A stretch of DNA of 64,000 bases from Agathobaculum massiliense (GTDB lineage Bacteria > Bacillota > Clostridia > Oscillospirales > Butyricicoccaceae). Shown piece after piece: positions 35,451 to 43,685 of the stretch. The notes under the pieces are model-generated. The model did not search any database. It was not told the origin of the DNA and saw only the letters and a list, made by a program, of their open reading frames with translations. Location of the stretch: NCBI RefSeq assembly GCF_900291975.1, contig NZ_OMPN01000001.1, positions 2,294,001 through 2,358,000 of the forward strand. Direction: 5' to 3'. The first letter of the stretch is position 1. Every line of letters starts with the position of its first letter. The translations under genes and the position numbers were made by a program.

Positions 35451-36089
35451 TTAAAGCCCCGAGAATATGTCACTCAAGTAATATTTGCCATTGATTTCTT
35501 TGCATATCACGAAATAAGATGTCTGCCGCTGATCCGGTCCAAAGGTGCTCATTTCTGCTGGGATCATATCGAATGTACATTGAAACACCAGCCTCCCCTC
35601 TTGCTGAGAATTTTCAGCATCATATTCACATGAAACAACGGTCGCCTCTGCCATTCCGGCCACACCCTGTACGCCGCTGTAATCATATTGGATCGTTCCT
35701 TCAGTTGTTAAAGCATACATGGCATCATAGTCTTTTTTCGAAAAACTCTCAAAGAACTGGTAAATTGTATCTTTTGCGCCTGCCACATCTTCATCACTGA
35801 AAATCGGATCGTTAATCAAAACGGTGTTGGTGTCTCCATCCCAATCGACAAATTTACCATTTAACTCTTCTATGGCCCGTAGAGGGACATAAGTTGTTCC
35901 ATTGTAGAGAATGGGCTGCACCACGACACCATCCTCATCCTTGGCTATAAATTCTTCTCCGTTCACCAAAATTGTGATATCCGGCAGATCTATCGTAATT
36001 CGATTGTTGACTGCAAGAGCGCCAATACAACATATAATTGAGCTTATCACAACACAAATTAAAGTCTTACTCCATTTGGGCTTATTCAT
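35451..36089 (-). CDS. Secreted protein with copper-amine-oxidase-N stalk and NTF2-like domain
   Basis: A 212-residue protein. AAGGAG precedes the ATG. An N-terminal signal or anchor helix (LICVVISSIICCIGALAV) is followed by a stalk domain (ITILVNGEEF ... YNGTTYVPLRAIEELNGKFVDWDG) of the type used as wall-binding spacers in Clostridia. The C-terminal part (AGAKDTIYQFFESFSKKDYDAMYALTTEG ... YFVICKEINGKYYLSDIF) looks like a small NTF2-like fold. No catalytic role is evident. It ends 18 bases upstream of nothing but a terminator and lies 18 bases after the amidase-like gene, so the two are probably co-transcribed. Confidence 0.75.
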   Translation of the reverse strand: MNKPKWSKTLICVVISSIICCIGALAVNNRITIDLPDITILVNGEEFIAKDEDGVVVQPILYNGTTYVPLRAIEELNGKFVDWDGDTNTVLINDPIFSDEDVAGAKDTIYQFFESFSKKDYDAMYALTTEGTIQYDYSGVQGVAGMAEATVVSCEYDAENSQQEGRLVFQCTFDMIPAEMSTFGPDQRQTSYFVICKEINGKYYLSDIFSGL

Positions 36090-36107
36090 GATAAGACTCC
36101 TTCCTGT

Positions 36108-37295
36108 TTACTGTGGGGTCCAACGATTATCATAAGAGTCCCAGCATGGAATAAGGAAATCGCAGTTTTCACTAAACCATTCTTGATTCATGGTCTCATC
36201 ACAATGATCATTGGTATGAGCACTATATTTCATTGTACGTCCATCATTACTTGTAACGATTCCGACATGCCCTTCCGGTGTCCCGCTCTGATAATAGATA
36301 ATGCTGCCCGCAATAGCTCGATCAATATCGGTATCTCCCTTTACCCAAAAGACAATGTCGTACTCCTGCATGTAGTCAGACAAACCATAATATGTGGAGC
36401 GAGAACCACCGGTATTTATCCAAGGAATAGTATATCTCTTCCATATGTTATCTTCTGACAATCCACCCTCATAATAGCACTGAGAAACAAAATTTGCACA
36501 ATCTTCGGACGTGTAATAATTATAATCGGGATTACGAGGGAAGTTGGCAGGATCTTGTGCATAATCACGGGCTGCTACACGATCCAATTCTTGCGCACGG
36601 GATGATCCAGATGCCTTTGTTCCGTTGTTTACAAGGCGTATAACGGTGTTATAGGCTTTTTCATACACTTCAGAATCTGTCTCTAATTCAAAAGCGTCAA
36701 TAGGCTTATCAGTAAATTCCTGTTCTGTGTCAGCAATTCCGTTATTCAACGTTGTTACATTGTCATTTGTGATAAAGTTATAATCACGATACATTATGCT
36801 GGAATTCGCTAAAAGTTGATCAACAGATACAGACTGCTTTGCATTTATGAGTGATGGTTGAATTGAAAATGCAATATTGAATGTCGCTTCATTAGAAATT
36901 GTTTTGTTGATATGATTCCGATTTAATTCATTTTTCCACATTTCAAGATAATCGGTTGCTTCACTGATTTGAGCTTCATCTGTCAAATCTTCAATTGCCC
37001 CCTCAATTCCTTGAATGTATGGAGAATCTTCCGGAGTAGATGCTTTTATTATGGTATCATATTCGACACGAGCAATAACATTTACTTTATTTGATGCATA
37101 TTCGATGCTTTCAATTTGCGTAGACAGATTGGAAACATCATAATAATCTTCACGGTATTCCTTAACCGTGTCTTCAGCAAGAGTTACGGCTCCATCTGCT
37201 ACAACCGTATCTAAAGAATTATATGAGGCAGATGCACATACTGCACATACACTACAGGCTAAAAATGCTGTAATCAATAGTTTACTCTTTTTCAT
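36108..37295 (-). CDS. Secreted amidase_6-type cysteine hydrolase
   Basis: A 395-residue protein. GGAGGAG lies just before the ATG. A signal peptide (LLITAFLACSVCAVCASA) is followed by about 240 residues of uncharacterised sequence and a C-terminal putative amidase domain. The domain begins ARDYAQDPANFPRNPDYNYY, with the likely nucleophile in SEDCANFVSQCYYEGG, the His in TPEGHVGIVTS, and YSAHTND. Amidase_6 proteins resemble NlpC/P60 and are presumed to act on wall peptides or other amides. It lies upstream of the stalk protein in the same direction. AT-rich codon use separates both from the conjugation operon. Confidence 0.8.
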   Translation of the reverse strand: MKKSKLLITAFLACSVCAVCASASYNSLDTVVADGAVTLAEDTVKEYREDYYDVSNLSTQIESIEYASNKVNVIARVEYDTIIKASTPEDSPYIQGIEGAIEDLTDEAQISEATDYLEMWKNELNRNHINKTISNEATFNIAFSIQPSLINAKQSVSVDQLLANSSIMYRDYNFITNDNVTTLNNGIADTEQEFTDKPIDAFELETDSEVYEKAYNTVIRLVNNGTKASGSSRAQELDRVAARDYAQDPANFPRNPDYNYYTSEDCANFVSQCYYEGGLSEDNIWKRYTIPWINTGGSRSTYYGLSDYMQEYDIVFWVKGDTDIDRAIAGSIIYYQSGTPEGHVGIVTSNDGRTMKYSAHTNDHCDETMNQEWFSENCDFLIPCWDSYDNRWTPQ

Positions 37296-37551
37296 TTTTC
37301 TCCTCCAGTTCTTTAAAACAGTTTCGGGATCTTACGACAACATCATAGTATTATATCGTAACGAATTCAATTAGAATTTTAAACAGGAAAAATTTATATT
37401 CTTGTGGAATTAACTTGTAACATAAAGAACATTTTTTTCGTACAAACGCATATTTGATTTTCACTAAATTTCTGATTACCTTTTCATAAGCTGGCATTTG
37501 CCAGCATGAAAATGCAACAAAAAGTAGTAAATGAGTAGTACAACCACCGAT
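37296..37551. other. AT-rich intergenic region
   Basis: No gene is visible. It contains the promoter region of the minus-strand amidase gene and the approach to an integrase relic; AGCTGGCATTTGCCAGCAT near 37490 is a short palindrome. Confidence 0.3.
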
Positions 37552-37671
37552 TTAAGAAGCAAGAGCCAGTCTTTCAAGTTCCGCTTTCGCTGAATTGAAA
37601 GTACCGTGTGCATAGTACCCTAATGTCATGGTAATGCTTGAATGTCCCATGATGTATTGCAAGGCTGGCTT
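37552..37671 (-). pseudogene. C-terminal fragment of a second Tn916-type integrase
   Basis: The minus strand reads ALQYIMGHSSITMTLGYYAH followed by GTFNSAKAELERLALAS and a stop, i.e. the last His and the nucleophilic Tyr of the catalytic domain. An in-frame TGA closes it at about 37672. It differs in sequence from the relic at 4101-4712, so it derives from another element. Confidence 0.8.
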
Positions 37672-37753
37672 TCATGGGCTGTATGCAGCAAAAGATGGTA
37701 CTGTGATCAATTCGGATCCATGAATGAGCCATTAAAGCTGCGACTGTAGAAGG

Positions 37754-37804
37754 AAATCCCGACTGGTGTCGTGGGAAACCGGCATCAGTCGGGGGTAATT
37801 CATT
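37754..37804. repeat. Dispersed hairpin repeat, copy 2
   Basis: It begins AAATCCCGACTGGTGTCG and ends CAGTCGGGGGTAATTCAT; CCCGACTGGTG pairs with CATCAGTCGGG. Like copy 1 it lies at the 3' side of a minus-strand gene, and here it overlaps the stop of the next gene. Confidence 0.55.
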
Positions 37805-38930
37805 GAATAATTATCTGCATGGTTGTGGGAGTTACAGATTTGTTGCCTGAAAAGTCTTTTAATACTTCGTTTATATCAAAAAGTTTTTTCAATTCTTGTG
37901 TTTGTATATTATATGAAAATACACCCTGCGTTCCATCCTGCAGTTGAAGATTTGCAAAGATGGTCTGTTGATCGGGACTAACAACAAATGAATAATAGGT
38001 TGCCACTCCGGGGATTTGAATTTCACTGGTGGTTTTATCGGTGATATTTAGCATCATAAGTTTTGCCTGCTGGTCAAGGACGCTTTCACGACCAATGAAA
38101 AGAAGTATGTCATCATTTAGGCGGGAAACATTCGATACTTCAAGATTATTTGCTGTCTCCCATACTTCGGAGCTGTCGGCATCTGCACCATAGTTGTCAA
38201 ATAGCGATGAATATGGCGTATCCGAGAAAGTATATATCACTGACTGCAGGCTGAAATCCGATGTATCGACAGACGAAATAAAAAATGGACATGGGGTTAT
38301 TTTTCCGTTTTCTTGATTTACGTCCATGCGTCGCCGAGCAAAGTCAGAATACCAAGTCGTAATAATCTCACCAGTATTGTGATCGATTGAAAAGTCGAGA
38401 TAAACTGAATCTGTATTATTAGAGAAAATTGGTTGTATCTCACCTGTTGTTGGGTCTATCTTCGCCAGCTGGACGACACCATTGCTTTCTTTTCCGCCCA
38501 CAATTCCATACAGCGCATTGTTATACCAATCCAGTTCATTGAATACATGGTGATAATTAGTTATGTCATTGATTTTCCCTGTTTTGATGTCGTAGACCTG
38601 CAGCTTGTCACCGGCAGAAGCATCTGAGGGATCACCCCAGACTGAATAATATACTTTTGCATTTTTATAATCCACGACGCCTACAGGATATTCACAGGCA
38701 CCAACATACGTGTATATCTCTTTGAGTTTGTTTGTCTTGAGATCATACAAATAAAACGATGTTGTGCGCTGCTCGTTGAAGTTCGTCGCCTCGGAATTTA
38801 GACTCGTATAGGTTAATGAAAGATAAGCGTAGTCGGACTCATCCATAATTGACTTATCATTTGTTTGTATTTCTGACGAAGTCGTAGCGCCTAAAGAAAG
38901 CATAAGCAGCCAGACAATAATTTTTTTCAT
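37800..38930 (-). CDS. Secreted beta-propeller-like protein
   Basis: A 376-residue protein. The ATG at 38930 follows GAAGGT; an upstream in-frame start at 38966 lies inside a palindrome and is not preferred. A short signal peptide (IIVWLLMLSLGATTSS) is followed by repeats of about 45 residues with the pattern YDLKTNKLKEI, YDIKTGKINDI, IDPTTGEIQPI, NTGEIITT and YNIQTQELKKL, as in TolB/WD40-like propellers. No enzymatic residues are evident, so it may be a periplasm-facing binding or scaffold protein. Its 3' end runs into a hairpin repeat copy, and its promoter region is shared with the divergent helicase gene. Confidence 0.65.
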   Translation of the reverse strand: MKKIIVWLLMLSLGATTSSEIQTNDKSIMDESDYAYLSLTYTSLNSEATNFNEQRTTSFYLYDLKTNKLKEIYTYVGACEYPVGVVDYKNAKVYYSVWGDPSDASAGDKLQVYDIKTGKINDITNYHHVFNELDWYNNALYGIVGGKESNGVVQLAKIDPTTGEIQPIFSNNTDSVYLDFSIDHNTGEIITTWYSDFARRRMDVNQENGKITPCPFFISSVDTSDFSLQSVIYTFSDTPYSSLFDNYGADADSSEVWETANNLEVSNVSRLNDDILLFIGRESVLDQQAKLMMLNITDKTTSEIQIPGVATYYSFVVSPDQQTIFANLQLQDGTQGVFSYNIQTQELKKLFDINEVLKDFSGNKSVTPTTMQIIIQ

Positions 38931-38950
38931 GATGATACCTTCTTGATATA

Positions 38951-38985
38951 CAGTAAGACCTATCATGTTTTGATAGGTCTTACTG
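38951..38985. repeat. Perfect 15-base palindrome in a divergent promoter region
   Basis: CAGTAAGACCTATCA (38951-38965) pairs exactly with TGATAGGTCTTACTG (38971-38985) around TGTTT. It sits between the divergent propeller and helicase genes; it could be an operator or a leader hairpin. Confidence 0.6.
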
Positions 38986-39064
38986 TTAAAAGATAAATTG
39001 ATTTACTGATACAAAACCTTATACGAGATACCTAAATTTAAAATGCTGTAGGGGGTATCTCTTT

Positions 39065-40336
39065 ATGAAAATGAATGATAGTTGGAAGCCGGTTATAAAA
39101 AGTCTTGGGATCGAGCATTTAAGACGACATCAGATTTTGCCCATCCAGTCGGTTTTAAACGGGTATGATACGATGGTTATGGCTGCTACCGGGTCTGGTA
39201 AATCAAATATGTTTTGTATTCCTGCATTGCTGCATCGTACAAAACTGACGCTGGTGATTGAGCCGACCTTATCGCTGCTGTATAGTCAGGTACACGAGCT
39301 GCAAGTTTGCGGTGTTGCAGCGGATTACATCGATCATTACCGTACAAAAAAGGAGACCGAAGCGATCCTGCACAAAGTGCGGAAGGCGAAGCTGACGTTT
39401 TTGTATGTCACACCGGAGCGGCTGCAAAGTGAGAAGTTTCAGCAAGCGATTCGGCAAACAGGGCTGTATATGCTGGTTGTGGATGAGTGTCACTGCGTAA
39501 CGGAGTGGGGATATTCTTTCCGGGAGAGCTATCTACAAATAGGAACCTTTATTGATTGCTTACCGGAACGTCCTGTGATATTTGCCTGCTCCGCCACGAT
39601 ATTGGAGGACAGGGAAAAGGAAATTGCCAAGTTGCTTCATATGAGACAACCTCAGCTATTTCAAAGCGATTTGAAGCGGAAGAATTTGATTCTATTAAAA
39701 AAAGACGTGACAAGCGAAAAGCGTTCGTTGGATGGACGTTTGGCGGATCGCTTTCAAGCGTTGGAGCGGTGCATAAGGAAATATCATGGGACAGGTTCCG
39801 TGTTGATTTACGCGCTGACAACGGGGTGTGTGGACGCAATCTATAATGCTTTATCGGAACGATATCCGGGACAGGTGAGCCGCTTTCATGCGAAGATGAA
39901 ATCAGACAAGCTCCGTCATCGTATGGAACTCGACTTCCTGCAGGGAAAAACAAAAATCATGGTAGCGACATCGGCGTTCGGCATGGGCATTGATGTACCG
40001 AATGTGGAACTTATCATTCATTTTAATATGCCGATCAGCATGACGGATTATATTCAGCAGATCGGCCGAGCGGGACGGAATGGCCAAAAGGCGCATTGCG
40101 TCTTATTTTTTGACCAAAATGGCGATGACGAAAAAATAGCAATTGTCTTTCAGAAAAAAGCGAAGACGGATTCGCCGATGGCAGGGAAACTGCTCAAAGC
40201 AAACGCGCAGGAAATGCGCCGATTTGCAGGCAGTGAAGATTGTATGGTACGCGAAATCCTACGGTTTCAGGGACAACAGGAAGTGAAAAACTGCAAATGC
40301 TGCACCAATTGCGCGAAAAAGAGAAGGGGGGAATGA
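39065..40336 (+). CDS. RecQ-like ATP-dependent DNA helicase, minimal form
   Basis: A 423-residue superfamily 2 helicase. Motif I is MAATGSGKSNMF, motif II VVDECHCV (DECH, RecQ-like), with the RecQ-specific EWGYSFRESYLQIG loop, motif III SATILED and motif VI QQIGRAGRNGQ. A C-terminal Cys cluster (EDCMVREILRFQG ... NCKCCTNCAKK) would bind zinc as in RecQ. RQC winged-helix and HRDC domains are absent, so it is shorter than chromosomal RecQ (about 600 residues). GGGGG lies before the ATG. The stop overlaps the next start (ATGA), so it is co-translated with the Rep-like protein, suggesting that the helicase serves that protein. Confidence 0.85.
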   Translation: MKMNDSWKPVIKSLGIEHLRRHQILPIQSVLNGYDTMVMAATGSGKSNMFCIPALLHRTKLTLVIEPTLSLLYSQVHELQVCGVAADYIDHYRTKKETEAILHKVRKAKLTFLYVTPERLQSEKFQQAIRQTGLYMLVVDECHCVTEWGYSFRESYLQIGTFIDCLPERPVIFACSATILEDREKEIAKLLHMRQPQLFQSDLKRKNLILLKKDVTSEKRSLDGRLADRFQALERCIRKYHGTGSVLIYALTTGCVDAIYNALSERYPGQVSRFHAKMKSDKLRHRMELDFLQGKTKIMVATSAFGMGIDVPNVELIIHFNMPISMTDYIQQIGRAGRNGQKAHCVLFFDQNGDDEKIAIVFQKKAKTDSPMAGKLLKANAQEMRRFAGSEDCMVREILRFQGQQEVKNCKCCTNCAKKRRGE

Positions 40337-41325
40337 ATGTGAAATCACAATATGGGATTCATACCTTTTCCATCATGGCGAAAAGCAGTTATCACGAGAT
40401 TCAGGAACTGTGGGAGGAAAACTGCTGTCAAGTCATGAACAGAGATCCGTATTTTCTGAATACTACCCTGCAAATAACAGAATACAAGGAACGCGGCGTC
40501 GAAATCGTACTGAACCAGTCGCTGACACATCCTTCATGGATCACGGTGATTGTCAATCCGTCGTCCCTTCTGGCAGGTAAGTATTGTCCGACCGCGCTTT
40601 TTATTGGGGAGAAAACGCAGATTAATGCCGTATCAAAGGTCTTGCAGAAGACTTTAGCGAAAATAGGCATCGAACAAAAGAAATTCATTTTGTCGCGGGT
40701 GGATTTGACCTGCAACCAGTATTATGAAAGCAAACGGGAGCTGCTAAACCAGTTGTATATTTGGAAGAAAACACGGCTGCCGTCTCGATACGAGGTAAGC
40801 CCGTTTGGGAAAGGGAAGGGCAGTGCGAAGCAATACAGGGAAGTGAATGAACACGCTTGGACGATTGAATCCAAAAGCTGCGCCTTTTCTGTGTATGACA
40901 AAACCTATGAACTGAAGAAGCGTCACAAAATGCAGATCGCAGAGCAAATTTTGCGACTGGAGCTGCGGCTCAAAAGGAAACGCATCCATCGGCTGACAGA
41001 TGCGAAGACTTGGGAAAAGCAATTACAGGTGCTTGCTAAACGACACAACGAGCTGTTCTGCAAATTTCTGCACCGCCTGTATCAGGACTTTCCGGAAGCA
41101 GTAACCATGCAGCAAGCTGAGCAGTGGATTGAAGCATCGGGTTTTCAGAAAAAGGCCAAAAATACAATGCGGAAGCTGATCAAGACAACTCGCCGCTGTA
41201 AATCATTAACTGCGGCACAAAAGAAACTGGAGCTCAGCAATCAAGCGATGGCACGTCTATATAAAAAGTTTCAGAAGCTGAAACTCAACCCGATTGTCCT
41301 TCCCGAGAATGGTAAGCATCATTGA
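40333..41325 (+). CDS. Unknown, replication-initiator-like protein
   Basis: A 330-residue protein. The ATG at 40333 follows GAAGGGGGG and overlaps the helicase stop. No family is firmly recognised. The order of motifs recalls rolling-circle initiators of phage and plasmid type (Rep_trans-like): SRVDLTCNQYYESK in the middle, then FSVYDKTYELKKRHKM and LRLELRLKRKRIHRL. The C-terminal third is helical and very basic (KNTMRKLIKTTRRCKSLTAAQKKLEL). Coupling to a helicase fits a replication or strand-transfer role. This is inference; there is no clear HUH motif and the catalytic Tyr is not assigned. Confidence 0.5.
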   Translation: MNVKSQYGIHTFSIMAKSSYHEIQELWEENCCQVMNRDPYFLNTTLQITEYKERGVEIVLNQSLTHPSWITVIVNPSSLLAGKYCPTALFIGEKTQINAVSKVLQKTLAKIGIEQKKFILSRVDLTCNQYYESKRELLNQLYIWKKTRLPSRYEVSPFGKGKGSAKQYREVNEHAWTIESKSCAFSVYDKTYELKKRHKMQIAEQILRLELRLKRKRIHRLTDAKTWEKQLQVLAKRHNELFCKFLHRLYQDFPEAVTMQQAEQWIEASGFQKKAKNTMRKLIKTTRRCKSLTAAQKKLELSNQAMARLYKKFQKLKLNPIVLPENGKHH

Positions 41326-41366
41326 ATTTTTCAGTGTCAGAAAACCAGTATCCATACAATAAATGA

Positions 41367-41406
41367 TAAAAAGCTGTCAAAAGGTGTACCTTTTGACAGC
41401 TTTTTT
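41367..41406 (+). terminator. Perfect hairpin: terminator and possible recombinase site
   Basis: AAAAAGCTGTCAAAAGGT pairs exactly with ACCTTTTGACAGCTTTTT around GT, with T-tracts. As a terminator it closes the helicase/Rep operon. It also contains two inverted TGTCAAAAGGT half-sites, the form of a serine-resolvase binding site. Confidence 0.7.
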
Positions 41407-41516
41407 GCCTTATCAAGTATATCGCAAAAACAGCCTAAAAGCAATAGTTAATTGCCACAACATTTCCAAATATCGAAAGCGGTGTATATCTGCTGGAAGT
41501 TTTTGCGCACATTCAG

Positions 41517-41531
41517 AAGGTACACCTTTTG
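41517..41531. repeat. Inverted copy of the hairpin core upstream of the recombinase gene
   Basis: AAGGTACACCTTTTG is the exact reverse complement of 41377-41391 within the hairpin. It lies 73 bases before the recombinase start. Confidence 0.5.
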
Positions 41532-41603
41532 AAGGTGAAAGAGCGGATTTGAGGATAAAGCTTCGAAACGATGCGAGCAGGATGAGATGGTATGGAGTGA
41601 CGG

Positions 41604-42200
41604 ATGATGACACACAAAACATTTTATTATGCGCGTATACCGGAAGGGAAACAGAGCTTTTATAGCCAATTGGATGCGTTTCAGCAGCTTGGCGCGCAGG
41701 AGCATGAGGTCTTTATCGACCAGCAATCGGAAAAGAATGCTGGTCAAAACAGCTATCAACTGCTGAAAAAAGTAGCGCTGCGTGAAGGCGACACACTGGT
41801 TATTCCGTCGTTGGATCATTTGAGCGATCACAAGGAAACCGTACAAAAAGAACTCCAGTGGCTGCGGGACAGCGATATTCGCTTGAAAGTGCTCGATATG
41901 CCGACTACTATGGTCGATTTCCCAGAGGATCAGGCGTGGGCCGCCCGTTTGATAAACGACGTGCTCATTGAGACCTTCAACGCGACCGTAGCCCAGGAAT
42001 ACACCGAGCACAAGCAAAAGCAGCGGGAAGGCATCGACGCGGCCAAAGCAAAAGGCATCCGCTTCGGTCGCCCGCCAATCGAAAAGAACCAAAAGTTCTA
42101 CGAGCTCAAGGGCCGCTGGGAGACCGGAGAAATCTCAACCCGGGAAGCCGCAAAGATTTTGGGCGTTTCGCATCAGACGTTTTGGAAGTGGGTTCGGTGA
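41604..42200 (+). CDS. Serine recombinase homologue lacking catalytic residues
   Basis: A 198-residue protein of resolvase/invertase layout: N-terminal fold (KTFYYARIPEGKQSFYSQLDAF ... LREGDTLVIPSLDHLSD), a long E helix (FNATVAQEYTEHKQKQREGIDAAKAKGIRFGRPP) and a C-terminal Hin-type HTH (ISTREAAKILGVSHQTFWKWV). Compared with gamma-delta resolvase, YARVS reads YARIP, so the nucleophilic Ser is Pro. LDRLGR reads LDHLSD, losing both active-site Arg, and the upstream Arg45 region also has no Arg. It should bind DNA without cutting it, perhaps as a repressor of the helicase/Rep operon. The frame is intact, so the losses are not simple decay. Confidence 0.8.
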   Translation: MMTHKTFYYARIPEGKQSFYSQLDAFQQLGAQEHEVFIDQQSEKNAGQNSYQLLKKVALREGDTLVIPSLDHLSDHKETVQKELQWLRDSDIRLKVLDMPTTMVDFPEDQAWAARLINDVLIETFNATVAQEYTEHKQKQREGIDAAKAKGIRFGRPPIEKNQKFYELKGRWETGEISTREAAKILGVSHQTFWKWVR

Positions 42201-42248
42201 GGACACTGACCTTCCTTATATAAAGAGAACAACCAGGAGGAGCGGTAC

Positions 42249-43127
42249 ATGAAGGGAATTGTACTGGCAGGCGGAAGCGGAACGAGATTGTATCCGCTGA
42301 CCATGGTGACGAGCAAGCTGCTGCTGCCGATTTATGACAAGCCAATGATCTATTATCCGCTGTCCACGCTGATGCTGGCGGGTATTCGCGACATTATGAT
42401 CATTTCCACGCCGCAGGACCTGCCGAATTTTGAGCGCTTGCTCGGTAACGGCAGCCGGTACGGCATTTATCTGTCCTATAAAGTGCAGCCTTCGCCGGAC
42501 GGCTTGGCGCAGGCGTTTATTTTAGGTGAAGAATTTATTGCGGGTGATCGCTGCGCGATGATTTTGGGCGACAACATCTTTTACGGCGCCGGCTTGAGTG
42601 CGCATTTAAGGGAAGCGGCGGGCCGAGAGCATGGTGCTACTGTGTTTGGCTATTATGTCGATGATCCAGAACGGTTTGGCGTTGTTGAGTTTAATAAAGA
42701 AGGTCAAGCGGTGTCGATTGAGGAAAAACCCTTGTCACCACACTCCAACTATGCGGTTACTGGTCTATATTTTTATGATGAAAAAGTGTGTGCTTACGCT
42801 AAAATATTGAAACCTTCTTCACGCGGTGAATTGGAGATCACGGATTTAAACCGTATTTATTTAGAAGATAACGCTTTAAATGTTGTAACTCTTGGCCGCG
42901 GCTATGCCTGGCTGGACACCGGCACGGTGGATTCGATGAACGAAGCGACCGACTTTGTCCGCGTGGTAGAAGGCCGCACCGGCATTCAAATCGCTTCCTT
43001 GGAAGAGATCGCATATCGAAACGGCTGGATCACTTGTGAGGAACTAAATGCAGCAGCCAATACATATGGAAAAGCGCCCTATGGCGCCTATCTGCGCAAG
43101 GTGGCCGAAGGAAAGATACAGTATTAA
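42249..43127 (+). CDS. rfbA: Glucose-1-phosphate thymidylyltransferase RfbA
   Basis: A 292-residue protein of normal length that makes dTDP-glucose, the first step of dTDP-L-rhamnose synthesis for cell-surface glycans. The nucleotidyltransferase signature [16 protein letters not shown] and the [16 protein letters not shown] stretch are clear, as are [21 protein letters not shown] and AWLDTGT. AGGAGG precedes the ATG. It is followed by rfbC after 12 bases. Bases about 42640-42900 are more AT-rich than the rest of the gene, which may reflect a recombination patch. Confidence 0.95.
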
Positions 43128-43139
43128 GGAGTCATCCAC

Positions 43140-43685
43140 ATGAAATTGACAGAAACAAAGCTGGCGGGCGTTGTGATTCTGGAACCGGATGTATTCGGTG
43201 ACCACCGCGGCTTTTTTATGGAGAGCTGGTCCAAGCGGAAAATGGATGAGCTGGGGCTGCACTATGACTTTGTGCAGGACAACCATTCCTCTTCGACCGT
43301 CAAAGGCACCCTTCGCGGCATCCACTTTCAGCGCGGGGACAAGGCGCAGGCCAAGCTGGTACGGTGCACACGCGGCGCGGTGTATGATGTGGCGGTCGAT
43401 TTGCGGCCGTACAGCCCGACCTACAAGCAATGGGTAGGCGTCGAGCTGTCAGCGGAGAACAAGAAGCAGTTTTTGATCCCGCGCGGCTTTGGCCATGGGG
43501 TTGTGACGCTGACCGACGACGTGGAGTTCCTTTATAAAGCGGATAACTATTATGCGCCCGAAGCGGACGGCGGCATCCGGTGGAACGATCCGGAGCTTGC
43601 CATCGATTGGGGTGTGGACGAGCCGGTCTTATCGGATAAAGACGACAAATCGCCATTTTTGTGTGATGCCGTGACCGGATTTTGA
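43140..43685 (+). CDS. rfbC: dTDP-4-dehydrorhamnose 3,5-epimerase RfbC
   Basis: A 181-residue cupin-fold epimerase for the third step of dTDP-L-rhamnose synthesis. Conserved stretches are DHRGFFMESW, FVQDNHSSSTVKGTLRGIHFQ (with the catalytic His) , AVYDVAVDLR, FLIPRGFGHGVVTL and LYKADNYYAPEADGGIRWNDP. GGAG lies ahead of the ATG. It is followed 11 bases later by the start of rfbB, which is cut off; rfbD is absent. The operon therefore cannot complete rhamnose synthesis from this locus. Confidence 0.95.
   Translation: MKLTETKLAGVVILEPDVFGDHRGFFMESWSKRKMDELGLHYDFVQDNHSSSTVKGTLRGIHFQRGDKAQAKLVRCTRGAVYDVAVDLRPYSPTYKQWVGVELSAENKKQFLIPRGFGHGVVTLTDDVEFLYKADNYYAPEADGGIRWNDPELAIDWGVDEPVLSDKDDKSPFLCDAVTGF

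Follow-up and report, generated by a model that had tools for sequence, protein, structure and literature searches.

The window analysed here is a 64,000-nt stretch of the Agathobaculum massiliense genome (contig NZ_OMPN01000001.1, positions 2,294,001 to 2,358,000). It carries genes for a minimal RecQ-type helicase, for an initiator-like protein (hereafter Rep) and for a serine-recombinase homologue (SR), followed by rmlA and rmlC. A first-pass annotation of this DNA had read the first three as a single unit. Our analysis indicates that the locus is probably two abutting systems and not one. Module A (39065-41325) is the RecQ-Rep pair and most likely represents the replication/mobilisation module of Butyricicoccaceae integrative elements, reduced in the window copy to RecQ-Rep alone. 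Module B (41377-43685) comprises a DNA switch and the genes SR-rmlA-rmlC, the switch being a segment bounded by inverted repeats that would act as an invertible promoter heading this operon. The three annotated open reading frames (ORFs) were all confirmed (Table 1), together with the ATGA overlap that couples the first two (RecQ TGA at 40334-40336, Rep ATG at 40333-40335).

Three observations speak most strongly for RecQ as a dedicated partner of Rep: the Rep phylogeny, the divergence of the two proteins and the coupling of their genes. In the Rep tree, which contains several long branches, one branch separates 15 RecQ-linked Reps from 8 RecQ-less ones with a support of 100/99. The pairwise identities of RecQ and Rep from 15 loci are strongly correlated (r = 0.95), and none of 5000 permutations gave a value as high. 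At all 15 loci a Rep start codon lies at -3 to +3 nt of the RecQ stop; in L046 this start is a TTG, with the next ATG at +6. The stable partnership implied by the first-pass annotation is borne out by these comparisons. Relatives of the window Rep were found in 16 of 149 genomes, and a Rep profile detected the family in 15 of 87 genomes of the bacterial family (E <= 1e-8) and in 21 of 394 genomes sampled from the order (E <= 1e-15). RecQ lies directly upstream of Rep in 19 of the 41 loci tabulated, and does not in the other 22; these counts leave out L154, a profile match without tblastn support, as well as additional Reps, whole or fragmentary, in L034 and L042, and they include L142, where the sequence upstream of Rep is not covered. 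Some of the 19 RecQ-bearing loci are partial: L039 is at a contig end, L041 is truncated and L145 is a partial match.

The window RecQ displays the helicase motifs TGSGKS and DECH and a C-terminal Cys cluster in its translation. It scores above the cut-off of the RecQ-family helicase core model (TIGR00614 recQ_fam, 260.7 versus 219.8) and does not reach that of the full-length recQ model (TIGR01389, 302.4 versus 640.2 bits), and no Pfam match to canonical RQC or HRDC domains was obtained. The protein is the minimal RecQ that had been described. The host encodes another, longer RecQ (G000:C2:1416545; 445.7 bits, 688-aa open frame). A scan of a genome contig collection with the RecQ alignment yielded 14 loci, 8 of which harbour Butyricicoccaceae-type RecQs with 47-58% identity; among viral contigs, a RecQ scan picked up two relatives, both distant (32%). 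The scan of the genome contig collection revealed no relative of the window Rep. At one locus (L043:10375-14865), a different, second RecQ-like helicase (31% identical to that of the window) and a 553-aa orphan protein are located directly upstream of the RecQ-Rep pair.

The middle protein is a Rep_trans-type initiator and not an HUH nuclease, as judged from its predicted structure. The AlphaFold2 model, built from an alignment of 23 homologues (A4), has a pLDDT of 91.9 and a pTM of 0.88. The four top Foldseek matches in the PDB are initiator chains (4cwe, 4cij, 4cwc and again 4cij; E 3.4e-6 to 5.4e-6, probability 1.00), corresponding to RepDE (4cwe, 4cwc) and to a Geobacillus initiator (4cij). 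TATA-binding protein (TBP) comes next among the PDB matches, and the model displays the curved, TBP-like beta-sheet that is characteristic of the Rep_trans fold; the RepDE sheet is likened to TBP in its own paper (PMC4797284). The top viral match is G2P of Inoviridae. The 10 fold matches that reach E <= 0.001 include no HUH chain, and the alignment contains a single nearly invariant His. An HUH-type Rep, the other fold proposed for comparison, was set aside on the fold search.

The predicted active site points in the same direction. R122, D124, Y188, K190, R208 and E210 are invariant in 23/23 homologues and pair, by motif and not by superposition, with R140, D142, Y191, K193, R212 and E214 of RepD (PMC4797284). 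R122 and D124 form motif I, RxD, as defined in PMC5714925, which also names a motif II (T/SxY/ExG) and an Asp of motif N' for this kind of initiator. Motif III, YxKxxE, reads Y188-D-K190-T-Y-E193 in the window; its Tyr and Lys are found in all homologues and its Glu position is often Gln, a residue that RepSTK1 likewise carries there (Q184; PMC4797284). The rolling-circle-initiator character suspected from motif order is borne out by fold and residues alike. Several observations nevertheless weigh against the assignment. The structural matches to the initiators have moderate TM-scores (0.36-0.47, normalised by query length), the Arg equivalent to RepD R189, two residues before the catalytic Tyr, is not conserved in the homologues, and Pfam Rep_trans (PF02486) matches the window Rep at 20.6 bits (E 3.7e-4), under its gathering score of 29.6. 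Because of this score we use the label Rep_trans-type and do not claim membership of the Pfam family. Phage_CRI matches the window protein at 1.3e-3, also under its gathering score, and at E <= 0.1 Rep_trans and Phage_CRI match 9/23 and 11/23 homologues, respectively. Weak as they are, these sequence matches agree with the fold. In motif IV, W/LxRxE, the Arg and Glu are present in 23/23, with an Ile in the window in place of the Trp or Leu two positions before the Arg. A sequence search of the PDB found no relative of the window Rep. In module A, Rep would nick one strand at the origin of the element through Tyr188 and remain on the 5' end, and RecQ would unwind from the nick, so that the element would be replicated or mobilised as a single strand.

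We then considered what kind of element the pair belongs to. Module A is read as a module of integrative elements because of the genes found near part of the units. A large serine recombinase lies within 5 kb in 14/41 loci. In 13/41, the 500 nt downstream of Rep hold a MerR-like gene (~90 aa), mostly followed by an excisionase-like (Xis-like) helix-turn-helix gene; six of the 41 loci had supplied recombinase queries, flank lengths differ, and no background rate stands behind these counts. An orphan family of ~550-aa proteins occurs near Rep in six loci (L044, L045, L053, L144, L147 and L150), in four of them between the large serine recombinase and Rep/RecQ. The six sequences gave no Pfam or informative PHROG match and, with a low-confidence model (pLDDT 66.6), no solved fold at E <= 0.001. 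The 553-aa protein of L043 does not match this family; it bears the family label in the locus table because it had served as one of the queries. The two units of G024 have 2550 bp in common at 93.8% identity within differing surroundings, and Butyricicoccus pullicaecorum (G053) carries four Rep-only copies at different sites, 88-91% identical, plus fragments.

Alternatively, module A could be the decayed replication region of an integrated plasmid or phage, without present mobility. The window copy has no MerR, Xis or large serine recombinase neighbour over 9-10 kb on each side and no recognisable left end, broken copies exist elsewhere (L041, L055, L056), and the fold is shared with plasmid and filamentous-phage initiators. 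Both window ORFs are intact, however, RecQ and Rep co-diverge across loci, and neither the 72,556 plasmid records nor the 50,697 phage records searched by tblastn (E <= 1e-3) contain a relative of the window Rep. Residence on a plasmid or phage was set aside on this last result, and we regard the decayed region as unlikely.

A small rolling-circle transposon was the other possibility. Rep would nick a conserved left end located ~200 nt upstream of RecQ, together with a variable right end, RecQ would unwind, and copies would insert without target duplication, preferring certain intergenic sites. A motif, C[CT]TAT[CT][TG]A, is indeed found at a near-fixed distance: 7/18 RecQ loci have it 199-202 nt upstream of RecQ, and 3/21 Rep-only loci 206-213 nt upstream of Rep. 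Orthologous loci were counted separately, so that not all of these are independent, and an additional match occurs in L036, at 328 nt. In four other loci, homology to the L031 unit starts at the exact base of this motif. Three of these four (L032, L034 and L164) have one upstream flank in common, so that two different flanks, besides that of L031 itself, back this sharp left boundary. The separate sites of the four B. pullicaecorum Rep-only copies and the varying right ends fit the same idea. The motif was not found, however, in 11/18 RecQ loci, that of the window among them, a partial copy in G023 (L165) matches 84 nt further upstream past the left end, and large serine recombinases accompany the 14 loci mentioned above. 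No clean empty site was found for L031 and one B. pullicaecorum copy, the two loci searched, where flanks diverge. The transposon is kept as a rival for this last reason, and we consider it improbable. An origin hairpin at the left end was also rejected: single-stranded DNA folds of four 5' regions gave z values of -0.8, -2.8, -3.9 and -6.3, the last, from the window, being largely due to the hairpin at 38949-38990. All four regions contain a dyad around the RecQ ribosome-binding site, which could equally be an operator or serve translation control.

Two side observations were made. In feoB-like genes of several genomes, named by eye (L031, L033 and L157-L162; also L165, L042 and L048), the alignment ends at one point, after which each sequence differs; this point carries a shared motif of ~25 nt (CGCATCCACTTTT-ACCCAAGCA-like). 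Inspection by eye shows it again next to Rep elements located at other genes, and it might be the att-like core of an integrative element. Elsewhere, CRISPR-like repeats lie close to the ends of RecQ-Rep units or their remnants (L038:10584-12610, L039:1205-1825 and L041:10757-10800; type I-E-like by eye, with a period of ~61 nt).

The plain terminator that had been placed after the middle gene turned out to be part of module B. The hairpin itself is real, with 17 pairs; the 61-nt stretch around it (41360-41420) folds at -24.5 kcal/mol with a z value of -7.1. It also includes one arm, the left, of a 20-nt inverted repeat; the two arms differ by one mismatch. This is the sole pair of 20-nt arms with at most one mismatch and a spacing of 60-400 nt in the 64 kb, and 0/20 shuffled sequences contained one. 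The arm consensus matches only two places in the genome, each listed on both strands since the sequence is nearly palindromic. Four relatives of the window cassette were identified, two in G024 and two in G011. The segment has the orientation of the window in G024:C36 and in one G011 copy, and the inverted orientation in G024:C1 and in the other G011 copy. A 156-bp segment is inverted between L045 and L046, within G024 (99.4% identity), and, at the rml loci, between G011 and G024 (96.8%). In the alignment of inverted copies the outer flanks are exchanged which, together with the inversion of the segment, is the signature of site-specific inversion. Rfam produced no match in the window at gathering score.

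The segment contains a putative promoter, TTGCTT-17-TATACT, both hexamers of which are unchanged in 5/5 copies; only in the two inverted copies does it point at the recombinase gene. The window would be in the OFF state, the promoter facing Rep and its transcripts ending in the hairpin terminator partly built from the left inverted repeat. Inversion would aim the promoter at the operon and break up the strong terminator, giving the ON state. Several points argue against this switch model. The promoter is weak (8/12, by our own count) and was not listed by the promoter scan, and the scan of L045, the one inverted copy scanned, picked out another promoter-like site that points the opposite way; a hairpin of 8-9 pairs remains there. 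As a consequence of these two results, ON and OFF are states that we infer. Furthermore, a better promoter-like site in G021 (11/12) is directed away from the recombinase gene, a reversed-pattern control gave 3 hits, so that the number of repeat sites is not above chance and their position alone is telling, and inversion was observed between species and paralogous loci, not in the window's own population.

The third gene encodes a serine-recombinase homologue devoid of catalytic residues, as had been annotated. The resolvase domain is detected (PF00239, 1.3e-11), while the catalytic Ser is replaced by Pro and the D-R-x-x-R motif reads D-H-x-x-D, the two Arg being changed to His and Asp. All five catalytic residues are present in 33/35 full-length distinct homologues, the window protein being included in the 35, and the catalytic Ser is missing in 2/36 distinct homologues (one of them truncated), namely those of the window and of G021:C64; identical proteins were counted once, the truncated L063 lies outside the tree, and the small L044 recombinase is outside the alignment (A3). 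The recombinase is intact in the four G011 and G024 cassettes. The second dead recombinase, from another species of the genus (Table 1), follows its own 19-nt inverted repeat (91-nt spacing, ~58 nt before the ATG). It shares P12, GKQS, VIPSL and LSD with the window protein and groups with it (100/96); the long G021 branch makes this grouping unsure. In the relatives, the first gene of the operon, an intact serine recombinase, is presumably the invertase. In the window, inversion, if any, would need another recombinase, and the dead protein may act as a binding protein or regulator at the repeats.

The window switch may also simply be dying, its recombinase inactivated under relaxed selection and its promoter locked OFF. 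The recombinase is only 66% identical to the intact copies, versus 90-93% for RmlA and RmlC, and has lost the Ser and two Arg. Against this, its ORF and DNA-binding domain are intact in spite of saturated or nearly saturated synonymous change, and dN/dS is ~0.13 in the sole comparison with a finite dS (1.71), versus 0.04 for rmlA. This ratio and the intact ORF suggest a weaker but real constraint on the dead gene, as would fit a protein that binds DNA; the gene may also be decaying slowly. The inverted repeats of the window also match better than those of the intact copies, and the second dead recombinase, in G021, is accompanied by an intact repeat pair. We consider a dying switch conceivable but doubtful.

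All six cassettes (window, G024:C36, G024:C1, two in G011, G021) head glycan-type genes. These are rmlA-rmlC in the window, G024:C36 and G011. The other three cassettes (second G011 copy, G024:C1, G021) precede glycosyltransferases, an ABC transporter or a sugar-kinase-like gene. The gene names come from profiles in the window and from protein beginnings and similarity elsewhere. A single unit of helicase, Rep and recombinase is not supported: the recombinase homologue goes with the inverted-repeat switch and the glycan genes instead, and four of the six cassettes (two G011, G024:C1, G021) lack a directly adjacent RecQ-Rep.

The two modules nevertheless meet more than once. In both the window and G024:C36, a RecQ-Rep unit stops 50-60 nt short of the same switch, and the two units belong to different lineages (RecQ 48%, Rep 23% identical). 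Among 30 rmlA loci examined (31 places, one without a locus), 3 have a Rep, and 3 a related recombinase, within 1.5 kb upstream. All these loci are among the 5 in which rmlC is beside rmlA, so that Rep is found at 3/5 rmlAC loci. We interpret the units of different lineages at the same switch and the Reps at 3/5 rmlAC loci as the mark of an insertion hotspot, and the rmlAC region is probably one for Rep elements.

The same two observations also favour a reading in which RecQ, Rep and the dead recombinase act together, with the recombinase holding or directing the RecQ-Rep pair, for instance at the inverted repeats. The two independent units at one switch count against complete separation of the modules and leave room, with a small probability, for a functional link. 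Nothing shows such a complex, however. The four cassettes without an adjacent pair speak against it, the recombinase next to the G024:C36 unit is intact and not dead, G018 has a stop-interrupted Rep-only element upstream of rmlA, in the other direction, where no such recombinase gene occurs, and a close recombinase homologue (66%) is found near only two (L045, L046) of 26 wide loci. Joint action, and with it the proposal that the dead recombinase regulates or positions a RecQ-Rep complex, seems very improbable to us. Only slightly more credible, and still highly improbable, is a scenario in which RecQ-Rep is an autonomous non-HUH rolling-circle transposon (Rep_trans nuclease with its own RecQ) that repeatedly inserts upstream of phase-variable glycan operons, and in which a clade of dead invertases now consists of DNA-binding regulators of their own former switch.

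The first-pass annotation had left the choice between a replication, a mobilisation and a defence cassette. Replication or mobilisation is the most likely for RecQ-Rep. With PADLOC, RecQ matches helicase models of DpdF and PsyrT (E down to 1.2e-84), which looks like general RecQ similarity, and the matches of Rep (0.0019) and of the recombinase (0.029) are marginal, other system components having been sought among the three genes only. A defence cassette was set aside on these generic and marginal matches.

Table 1. Coordinates of the features of the RecQ-Rep module, the switch and the rml operon (window positions unless a locus is given)
Feature	Position	Strand	Remarks
Long-stem hairpin, terminator-like	38949-38990	.	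between RecQ and a divergent lipoprotein-like gene; very stable (single-stranded DNA fold of 38940-39075, z -6.3)
RecQ-type SF2 helicase, minimal, no RQC/HRDC match	39065-40336	+	423 aa
Rep_trans-type rolling-circle initiator (predicted)	40333-41325	+	330 aa from ATG; predicted active site R122, D124, Y188, K190, E193, R208, E210
Hairpin terminator in the switch orientation of the window, includes left inverted repeat	41368-41405	-	17-pair stem
Left inverted repeat, TCAAAAGGTGTACCTTTTGA	41377-41396	+	
Invertible segment, 116 bp	41397-41512	.	
Putative promoter TTGCTT-17 nt-TATACT, directed away from the recombinase gene (presumed OFF)	41416-41444	-	
Right inverted repeat (reverse complement TCAAAAGGTGTACCTTCTGA)	41513-41532	-	
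Serine-recombinase homologue without catalytic residues; first gene past the switch	41604-42200	+	198 aa; start 41604 or 41607
rmlA, glucose-1-phosphate thymidylyltransferase	42249-43127	+	profile-tested in the window
rmlC, dTDP-4-dehydrorhamnose 3,5-epimerase	43140-43685	+	profile-tested in the window
Second dead serine recombinase	L097:9747-10535		other species of the genus (G021:C64); own inverted-repeat pair, heads glycan-type genes

Beside RecQ, a low-GC stretch (35451-38966) contains minus-strand genes for copper-amine-oxidase-N-like, amidase_6/CHAP-like and lipoprotein-like proteins.

Helitrons, like module A, carry a helicase. IS91 and Helitron elements also resemble it in having an initiator-type endonuclease. 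Their nucleases are of the HUH type, according to PMC5714925, in contrast to the fold predicted here, and transposition of module A is putative. No HUH-type transposase is recognised by fold, the left end recurs, the right end varies, and no clean empty site was found at the loci searched. Closer relatives in fold are the Rep_trans initiators (PF02486; RepD and RepC of the pT181 family, RepSTK1) and the MobT relaxases of Tn916 and ICEBs1, with which the window Rep shares the predicted fold and the RxD, YxKxxE and RxE residues. The best-studied of these initiators also need a helicase, and rely on the host PcrA, as in pT181 (PMC4797284). The window Rep differs from them by its score under the Pfam threshold and by the RecQ-type (SF2) helicase encoded in the same operon. 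Integrative mobilisable elements (IMEs) with Rep_trans initiators are known, and others have a Rep_2 initiator with an associated helicase domain (PMC5704250). The latter are, like module A, chromosomal elements of Firmicutes with a rolling-circle-type initiator and a helicase partner; they differ from it in that the initiator here is of the Rep_trans type, that the helicase is a separate RecQ-type protein, and that large serine recombinases and the ~550-aa orphan accompany part of the copies.

Mpi, a recombinase of Bacteroides, is a serine recombinase. Invertons of gut bacteria, such as the Bacteroides polysaccharide loci with Mpi (PMC11892184, PMC11868660), resemble module B by a repeat-bounded segment before glycan genes and a recombinase nearby. 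Here, unlike there, the host is a member of the Butyricicoccaceae and the switched operon starts with the recombinase gene, whose product is catalytically dead in the window. The titles and abstract beginnings of the literature searched, to which subscription journals mostly did not belong, contain neither a RecQ-Rep_trans pair nor, within the same limit, a dead serine invertase beside a switch or an invertible promoter of Agathobaculum. A switch taken for a plain terminator, with a recombinase lacking catalysis beside it, is more unexpected than the pairing of a Rep with a helicase.

Given the use of PcrA by the best-studied Rep_trans initiators, a RecQ-type partner that is stably inherited together with Rep would be an exception, and one that can be tested. 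RecQ-Rep would mark an unannotated replication/mobilisation module in butyrate-producing gut bacteria. Independently, the locus provides Butyricicoccaceae with a further rhamnose operon that is probably phase-variable; the first gene of this operon encodes a recombinase that has lost catalysis and kept its reading frame. For the question whether a DNA switch can be regulated by a dead invertase, the window locus would be a natural test.

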